DNA from: Shimia biformata
Lineage (GTDB): Bacteria > Pseudomonadota > Alphaproteobacteria > Rhodobacterales > Rhodobacteraceae
DNA: 64,000 nt
Assembly: GCF_016888515.1 (NCBI RefSeq)
Contig: NZ_JAFEJK010000001.1
Location: 2,711,116 to 2,775,115 of the forward strand
Direction: 5' to 3'
The stretch's first letter is position 1, and every line of letters starts with the position of its first letter. Of this stretch, positions 28,870 through 30,519 are shown piece by piece. Position numbers and translations under genes: made by a program. The notes beneath the pieces are model-generated. The model worked only from the letters and a program-made list of their open reading frames with translations, did not search any database and was not told the origin of the DNA.

Positions 28870-30519
28870 TTAGGTCGCAAGCTCTTGCAGCACGCGGGGC
28901 AGAATCTCGGGCAGGTCCTCGGCGATCAGGCCCGGTCCGAAGGTCCGCGCGCATTCGACATGCAGCCAGGCGGCGATTTCGGCGGCTTGCATCGGCACGA
29001 AACCGCGCGCGAGAAGTCCGGCGATGAACCCGGCCAGCACATCCCCTGCCCCGGCCGTCGCCAACCACGGCGCGGCGCGGTCGTAATGGGCCGAGTTGAT
29101 GCTGCACGCGCCGGTCAAATCGGCAATCACCGTATCCGGCCCCTTGAACAACACCGTGCAGCCCGCGCGAGCAGCGGCCTCGCGGGTGGCGTCGACCTTG
29201 GAATAGGCCGGCCCCGTGGTGGCTGGTGCTATCAGCCTAGCGTGGATGTCGGGGAACAACCGCTTGAACTCGCCTTCATGCGGGGTCAGCACGCAGTCTT
29301 CGTGCAGCATATCGAACAGCACTTCGGGCGCATCGGCAAACCCCGTCAGCGCGTCGGCGTCCAGCACCGTTGCGCGCTTTTGCTGCAATGCCACCGGCAC
29401 CAGATCGCGCGCAGGTTCAAGTCCCATTCCCGGGCCAAGGCACAGCGCGTTGATCCGGTCATCCTGCAACACATGGCTCAACGCACCTGGATCGCCCACT
29501 TCGCACATCATCAGCGCCGTGATCTGCGCCGCGACCTCGGCCTGCGCCTCATGCGGCACCCCCAGCGTCACCAGCCCCGCCCCGATCCGCAGCGCCCCCC
29601 GCGCCGCCAGCCGTGCCGCGCCGGTCTTGCCTGCGCCGCCCGACAGGATCAGCGCGTGGCCGTGGGAGTATTTGTGGTCACCGTTCTTGAAAACAGAATC
29701 GTCAGGTGCGTCCACCGCCAGAATCGGGTCAGATGTACTTGTTACACCAAGGTTCGCCCCCGGCCCGGGGGTGGGGGCGATTTCGCCCCCGCCCTGGGGG
29801 GCGGGTCGGGGGCGAACCGGGGCTGAAGCCCCGGGTGAACTGTTGAGACCAATGTCCTTGACCACGACCAACCTGCACTCAGAAGGACCATCGGCCAGTT
29901 GATGGCCGAGTTTTTGACGGTGAAACGTTACCGTGATCGCGCATTCCGGCAACGGTGGATCAAAAGCGCGAAGCCCTCTTCCACTGTCTGCGCAAACGCC
30001 ACTTGGCATGTCGACAAACACCCATTTGGAGAAAGCAAATGAATCTGTTGCGGCCGCAATGCTCATGATGTGGCAAATCTCGTCATTCAACCGTCGTACC
30101 AGTCCGGTTCCAAACAATGCGTCGACGACGAGAATTTCAGCGCCAGAGACGTTTGCCTCGGACCGGACCAGCTGATCAACGGCAAGTGGCTTGACCTCCC
30201 CCATCTCCCCCCACCGCTCATAATTCACCTTTGCATCCGGCGGCAGCTTTTCGGCATCCCCGTAGAGGAAAACCTCCACCTCCCAGCCCCACTCCTTCAA
30301 CAGACGCGCCACGACAAACCCGTCGCCGCCGTTGTTGCCGGGGCCGCACAAAACCACGGCGCGATGCGAGGTTTTTGCCAGTTCGGGCCATTCCTCGAAC
30401 ACCGCTTCGACCACGCCCCGCCCGGCCCGCTCCATCAGCTCCAGCCCGGTCACCTCGCCGGAATCAATCGCCGCCTTTTCTATGGCGCGCATTTGGGCAG
30501 CAGTGAGTAATTCGGTCAC
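28870..30519 (-). CDS. nnr: Bifunctional NAD(P)H-hydrate epimerase / ADP-dependent NAD(P)HX dehydratase
   Basis: A 549-residue metabolite-repair enzyme that restores damaged NADH and NADPH. The N-terminal YjeF_N epimerase domain (about residues 1-225) has VVLCGPGNNGGDGFVVARLL and VDALFGTGLVR. The C-terminal ribokinase-like dehydratase (about residues 265-549) has KGPDTVIADLTG and the catalytic ATAGAGDVLAGFIAGLLARG. Between the two domains, residues about 229-257 (Pro/Gly-rich, no similarity to either domain) are encoded by the large palindrome at 29751-29834. The insertion keeps the frame, and the domains on each side look intact. The gene is divergent from glnB. Confidence 0.95.
   Translation of the reverse strand: MTELLTAAQMRAIEKAAIDSGEVTGLELMERAGRGVVEAVFEEWPELAKTSHRAVVLCGPGNNGGDGFVVARLLKEWGWEVEVFLYGDAEKLPPDAKVNYERWGEMGEVKPLAVDQLVRSEANVSGAEILVVDALFGTGLVRRLNDEICHIMSIAAATDSFAFSKWVFVDMPSGVCADSGRGLRAFDPPLPECAITVTFHRQKLGHQLADGPSECRLVVVKDIGLNSSPGASAPVRPRPAPQGGGEIAPTPGPGANLGVTSTSDPILAVDAPDDSVFKNGDHKYSHGHALILSGGAGKTGAARLAARGALRIGAGLVTLGVPHEAQAEVAAQITALMMCEVGDPGALSHVLQDDRINALCLGPGMGLEPARDLVPVALQQKRATVLDADALTGFADAPEVLFDMLHEDCVLTPHEGEFKRLFPDIHARLIAPATTGPAYSKVDATREAAARAGCTVLFKGPDTVIADLTGACSINSAHYDRAAPWLATAGAGDVLAGFIAGLLARGFVPMQAAEIAAWLHVECARTFGPGLIAEDLPEILPRVLQELAT
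29751..29834. repeat. GC-rich palindromic element inside nnr
   Basis: An imperfect palindrome of about 68 bases. The outer arms are GGTTCGCCCCCG and CGGGGGCGAACC (29751-29762 and 29807-29818), with complementary G/C-rich inner segments around a GATTTC centre. It is followed directly by a second hairpin (CCGGGGCT/AGCCCCGG, about 29818-29834). It interrupts the linker of a bifunctional enzyme without breaking the frame, the behaviour described for protein-coding palindromic elements such as those in Rickettsia. Confidence 0.75.

Follow-up and report, generated by a model that had tools for sequence, protein, structure and literature searches.

We analysed a 64,000-nucleotide stretch of the Shimia biformata genome (hereafter the window), in which the minus-strand gene nnr carries a palindromic element in frame between its two enzyme domains. 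The gene and the parts of the element are listed below.

28870..30519, minus strand: nnr, bifunctional NAD(P)H-hydrate epimerase/dehydratase, GTG start; 549-residue open reading frame with Pfam YjeF_N and Carb_kinase matches and NCBIfam TIGR00197 and TIGR00196 above cut-off
29905..30441, minus strand: epimerase domain YjeF_N, residues 27-205 (Pfam PF03853, E 4.5e-34, profile 3-169 of 169)
28939..29652, minus strand: dehydratase domain Carb_kinase, residues 290-527 (Pfam PF01256, E 2.4e-45, profile 2-223 of 242)
29751..29836, minus strand: complete palindromic element in S-A-B order, translated in frame (covariance model R1, 72.4 bits, E 1.2e-9, this copy being one of the 11 used to build R1)
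29817..29834, minus strand: hairpin S, 7-bp stem and TTCA loop; 29817-29818 double as part of the long hairpin's outer arm
29783..29815, minus strand: hairpin A, core CCCGACCCGCCCCCCAGGGCGGG (alignment of copies; inverted-repeat search)
29754..29780, minus strand: hairpin B (alignment and consensus fold); A and B can also pair as one long bulged hairpin
29746..29750, minus strand: TTGGT, at the position of a weak 3' tag (flank profile of 120 copies)

The preliminary description had placed an in-frame palindrome at 29751-29834, and both these coordinates and the in-frame state within the minus-strand frame were correct. The run is a composite palindrome with a G+C content of 83%, consisting of a 68-nt bulged hairpin and an 18-nt hairpin. 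The 68-base palindrome and the second hairpin (29817-29834) were thus as described, but the terminal arms are not of 12 bases; they occupy 29751-29767 and 29802-29818 and are 17 nt long with 94% complementarity. The element spans approximately residues 229-257 of Nnr, and the two domains around it do look complete, as had been proposed, with Pfam profiles almost fully covered. The predicted RNA fold of 29741-29844 (plus strand) had a free energy of -82.7 kcal/mol, shuffled sequences averaging -56.9 (z -5.87), and none of 200 shuffles was as good. DNA folding of 29751-29834 gave z-scores of -5.99 (plus strand) and -4.31 (minus strand).

An AlphaFold2 model of the window Nnr, built from 42 Nnr sequences (mean pLDDT 81.6, pTM 0.56), placed 441 of 549 residues at a pLDDT of at least 70 (268 at 90 or above and 173 at 70-90), and gave values below 50 to residues 227-280, so that the linker encoded by the element is predicted to be disordered. 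Codon 379 falls in the turn that connects a helix (367-379) with a strand (383-387). With a disordered linker and a turn at codon 379, extra residues are predicted to do little harm at both sites.

A dispersed repeat family

When Nnr was searched against 61 genomes by tblastn, the window genome, G010 and G015 each had one stray match, confined to the linker peptide. A blastn search with a 96-nt stretch gave 33 rows in the window genome at E<=10, of which those that are weak and short are probably due to chance. The covariance model R1 was built from 11 aligned copies, nine of the window genome and two of G010. At E<=0.01, it gave 26 rows in the window genome, representing 23 distinct places, since three rows were opposite-strand readings. 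The preliminary description had left the copy number open and regarded a lack of other copies as evidence against an inserted element; by R1, there are 22 further places in the genome. At the same threshold R1 matched 13 of 41 genomes, comprising 13 of the 25 Rhodobacteraceae and none of the 16 from other families. Wider draws were run with stricter filters, by which weak matches were lost: 43 of 149 sampled Rhodobacteraceae genomes matched at E<=1e-5, and a class-wide draw of 142 genomes gave three matching ones, i.e., the window genome, G173 of the same family and G200 of another family.

The family unit is approximately 85 nt long and includes a hairpin S of variable sequence, two hairpins, A and B, whose cores are conserved, and a weak T-rich tag. 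Read along the coding strand of nnr, S (approximately 18-22 nt) comes first, followed by A (core CCCGACCCGCCCCCCAGGGCGGG), then a short loop and finally B. The S stem reached p<=0.01 against shuffles in 38 of 61 copies; an uninterrupted stem of at least 6 bp was found in 44 of the 61, with 30 distinct 5' arms, and was absent from 17. The consensus fold contains 22 pairs, and in five of them pairing is preserved through one or more double changes. The flank profile was drawn from 120 of 121 copies, one lacking the full 30-nt flank having been dropped. The 3' tag was weak, with T at +1 in 89% of copies followed by majorities of C/T, T, G and T, and with the exact TCTGT in 13 of 120; the opposite flank was C-rich and untagged.

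A long form of the element, approximately 150 nt, occurs in 11 copies (L113, L124, L132, L138, L141, L145, L146, L216, L310, L312, and L318). Their A and B cores are conserved, and the spacer between them has a near-constant length (68-77 nt from the end of A to CCCACCC) and almost no conserved sequence. Two copies of one genome, L139 and L140 in G009, are identical in the element and nearly so in their 25-nt flanks, an indication that a larger stretch was duplicated.

A G+C-rich linker might also be palindromic by chance, and at 83% G+C chance hairpins are common. The fold z-scores of -4.3 to -6, the 23 places in the window genome, the R1 matches in other genera and the 30 distinct arms among the 44 copies with an S stem of at least 6 bp all argue against such an origin, and we rejected it on the genomic copies and the z-scores, its probability being negligible.

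As for movement, PF01797 (the RAYT/Y1 transposase) had no match in the window genome, G009, G010, G012, or G024, and a RAYT-mobilised REP was rejected for the window genome on this ground. Seven of 41 genomes overall, G015 included, and 5 of 14 control genomes had PF01797 matches. A comparison of the two flanks for target-site duplication, as would be expected of a MITE, gave an ambiguous picture: 4-mers were shared in 29 of 120 copies where 19.3 were expected, a count that none of 200 shuffles attained, but there was no excess at lengths 3, 5, 6, or 8.

Genomic context of the copies

Context was determined for 121 copies, with genes called by our own codon scoring. The 60 + 60 fetched stretches are a subset of all R1 places; one stretch, L129, was picked from the blastn listing and had no R1 row. 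The majority of copies were intergenic. At threshold 10, neighbours were convergent for 34 copies, on the same strand for 49 and divergent for 13, while seven copies lay within a called gene; these are the 103 of 121 copies that were classified, the 18 without a neighbour class being left out of the counts.

Convergent neighbours exceeded divergent ones at two other thresholds as well (32 vs 12 and 28 vs 13), and a called stop codon lay at most 60 nt away from 52 of the 121 copies. These observations are consistent with a primarily transcript-end, REP-like RNA or DNA element whose coding copies are rare accidents, a reading compatible with insertion of a dispersed element into nnr. Other results argue against it. 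The tagged end seemed by eye to point toward gene 3' ends in the first 61 copies (20 vs 7 toward stop codons, p 0.019, at threshold 10; 16 vs 8 and 14 vs 8 otherwise), but this bias was gone in the next 60 (10 vs 9) and was not significant over all 121 (30 vs 16, p 0.054; 26 vs 15, p 0.12, at both other thresholds; 25 vs 21 when counted by stop codon). A run of at least four T followed S in 2 of 120 copies, and an intrinsic terminator was not borne out. Rfam gave nothing above the gathering score for the element: in 20 loci with copies the sole match above gathering was a tRNA elsewhere in L141, and at 29500-30100 of the window there were sub-threshold matches only (6C RNA, 29.8 bits vs 47; ar35, 19.3 vs 45), so that a known Rfam RNA was rejected. 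We therefore consider a primary role at transcript ends possible, though somewhat unlikely.

Seven of the 121 copies were in frame inside conserved genes with domain matches, namely nnr, cobN and an ABC-transporter ATPase gene; both orientations occur among them, and the frame in which the element is read differs as well.

Window genome, nnr: coding strand S-A-B; Pfam domain matches
L015, nnr of G010: coding strand S-A-B; Pfam domain matches
L281, nnr of G036: second loop, codon ~379; identical to L231 over 1700 nt
L108, cobN site 1 of the window genome: coding strand reverse of S-A-B; domain matches
L283 (G084) and L314 (G167), cobN site 2: mutual identity 81%, identity to the window-genome CobN 42%
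L149, N-terminus of an oligopeptide-type ABC ATPase of G015: 7 residues past the presumed start

The block at cobN site 1 was missing from all four aligned CobN of other genomes without the element (G002, G010, G011, and G043). At site 2 the other CobN lack a stretch longer than the element, so absence there is not specific to it. Three groups were excluded from the coding count: seven copies (L158, L147, L162, L288, L315, L331, and L337) in long open frames that have coding-like codons on either side of the element but no Pfam match; gene-edge copies, for example L107, L115, L130, L142, and L151, whose genes probably start further downstream; and two copies, L155 and L156, in frames without a Pfam match. 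The same element is thus found both between genes and in frame within them, and is absent from the compared orthologues, as in a dispersed coding palindromic repeat. Among the gene-edge copies, L130 (G010) and L151 (G015) lie just upstream of a gene with HMGL-like and LeuA_dimer domains in the same orientation, and are perhaps the same old insertion.

Repeated occupation of nnr

The preliminary description had taken the same linker, present without the palindrome in all relatives, as the finding that would speak against an inserted element. In a survey of 110 nnr loci (30 from the 61-genome tblastn and 80 named), R1 matched inside the gene in only seven, i.e., in the window genome, in G010 and in the five below; L216 has its R1 match upstream of nnr, outside the gene.

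L178, Roseovarius MAG: nnr linker, reverse; apparent junction common to L182 and L184
L184, Aliiroseovarius sediminis: nnr linker, reverse; apparent junction common to L178 and L182
L182, Aliiroseovarius sp. PrR006: nnr linker, reverse; weak R1 match (E 0.021)
L210, Defluviimonas sediminis: nnr linker, reverse; at another position than in L178, L182 and L184
L231, Pseudohalocynthiibacter aestuariivivens: nnr codon ~379, forward

Alignment of nnr, which had been proposed as a check, bore out the absence of the insert from the compared orthologues but not an exact boundary, because the linker diverges fast and letter-exact junctions are unreadable. Insertion is supported by the absence of the element from the compared nnr and cobN site 1 orthologues and by the finding of copies in either orientation at the nnr linker. 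Six changes of linker state were required on a quick tree of 103 Nnr proteins, from which the linker columns had been removed. The reverse copies did not form one group in it, and a starred branch parted G010 from the window protein; support was below 80 on 36 of 100 inner branches. This pattern points to several events, or to old insertions with many losses or transfer. Since the window and G010 copies have site, orientation, frame and S-stem core in common, they may represent one old insertion followed by losses. In five relatives (L023, L024, L030, L032, and L035), the epimerase and dehydratase parts of nnr are in different frames, i.e., the fusion is split there.

A second site of length variation is codon ~379, in a loop of the dehydratase domain, where 28 of the 103 Nnr proteins have at least 10 extra residues. 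By eye, long palindromes encode approximately 21 of these 28 extras and not the other seven. One of the palindromes is the R1 element; others are CGTC-like, GTAG-like or encode PPPP..HEGEG / LPLPLVGRG, and L203 has another kind. The GTAG and CGTC labels follow the tag letters named in PMC3733652, not its consensus figures. Counting the query itself and opposite-strand rows, blastn gave 43 rows for the PPPP repeat in G034 and seven for the CGTC-like repeat in G010.

A hairpin of mRNA or DNA might also be kept in nnr for a role, such as ribosome pausing between domains or mRNA decay, with selection acting on the structure. Between L178 and L184, which have the same junction, six of eight differences form three compensatory pair changes (0.00024 if the eight sites were random), against 0-1 with the partners slid, and many nnr genes have other long palindromes, without an R1 match, inserted in frame around codon ~379. 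However, the comparison involves just two sequences, and a two-sequence shuffle control attained the observed value in 51 of 500 cases; moreover, hairpin-templated correction or conversion from another copy could yield paired changes without selection. In addition, 103 of the 110 loci have no R1 match within nnr, and apparent remnants of the element, seen by eye in L177, L208, and L209, are decaying. We consider selection on structure quite improbable as the main explanation.

The repeated occupation of nnr is the most interesting lead of this analysis. It is conceivable that palindromic repeats of more than one kind preferentially land in the nnr gene of Rhodobacteraceae and are retained there. 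Palindromic mobile DNA would then provide the material, perhaps in the form of a folded mRNA module, from which the loops and linker of this enzyme are made; we hold this wider proposal to be doubtful, and put it forward as tentative.

Interpretation and comparison with known systems

Taken together, the best explanation, to which we assign a probability of roughly 0.83, is that the nnr palindrome belongs to a small palindromic element, dispersed in Rhodobacteraceae, that spread mostly into intergenic DNA and of which one copy came to sit in the nnr linker and was tolerated there. First, the element of approximately 85 nt (S, A, and B) would have spread through the genome, mainly between genes, presumably moved by a transposition-like event, and one copy would have reached the interdomain linker of nnr. 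Second, its base composition keeps most frames free of stop codons, so an insertion in a multiple of three would add a disordered Pro/Gly/Arg-rich stretch of approximately 28 residues; the 54 short copies have on average 5.28 of six frames open against 4.78 for base-shuffled copies, a modest excess. Third, the enzyme would tolerate the added stretch between two independently folded domains, and the protein is presumably full length and active, with a peptide that probably has no function of its own. Copies may later decay, and the residue may turn into an ordinary linker.

Several implications follow. Nnr offers one enzyme for measuring how such inserts affect folding, activity and mRNA. Its loop with palindromic repeats of more than one kind is also relevant to the question of how new protein segments arise from mobile DNA. 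Odd Pro/Gly/Arg-rich linkers of G+C-rich proteins are suggested to be, in some cases, decayed repeats.

The preliminary description had proposed a coding palindromic element analogous to those of Rickettsia, and the computed dispersed copies, in-frame copies and absence from compared orthologues support it. Rickettsia palindromic elements (RPE-1, RPE-4, and RPE-6) are likewise short, palindromic, dispersed repeats found in frame in ordinary proteins, as is generally known and as PMC3733652 has it. The Rhodobacteraceae element differs from them in being G+C-rich and in having three hairpins, and the likeness is one of kind. An NCBIfam scan of four element-bearing proteins found no RPE domain at E<=1e-3 (for L149, among the best 25 of 193 matches); we take NCBIfam to contain RPE models.

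According to PMC3733652, the occurrence of palindromic repeats within genes is established both in Rickettsia and, beyond Rickettsia, among the GTAG/CGTC REPs. As described there, REPs are palindromic and dispersed, lie mostly between convergent or same-strand genes and in some cases wholly in open reading frames, and different REPs occupy about the same recB site in two Xanthomonas species; GTAG/CGTC REPs carry a GTAG or CGTC tag, and the CGTC type has stems of 8-9 bp (PMC3733652). The text of that paper makes no mention of YjeF, CobN or Rhodobacterales. A literature search, covering mostly work outside subscription, found no earlier description of the Rhodobacteraceae repeat family among the titles and abstract openings listed.

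Similar to the GTAG/CGTC REPs, the Rhodobacteraceae element is mostly intergenic and favours convergent or same-strand neighbours. It differs from them in that the flank profile of 120 copies has no GTAG/CGTC tag, the unit of approximately 85 nt has three hairpins, and the window genome has no Y1 transposase match. REPINs and RAYT-mobilised REPs are units of two hairpins; a difference is that PF01797 has no match in the window genome or in the four other genomes named above. MITEs are short dispersed non-coding DNA; the outer ends of the Rhodobacteraceae element, in contrast, are not obvious inverted repeats, because hairpin S lies outside the paired arms of A and B. Coding palindromic repeats are a known kind, to which the present analysis adds a three-hairpin family of Rhodobacteraceae that is defined by a searchable model and whose genomes are named. 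This family is set apart by its build, its tag and the lack of a Y1 gene in the window genome.
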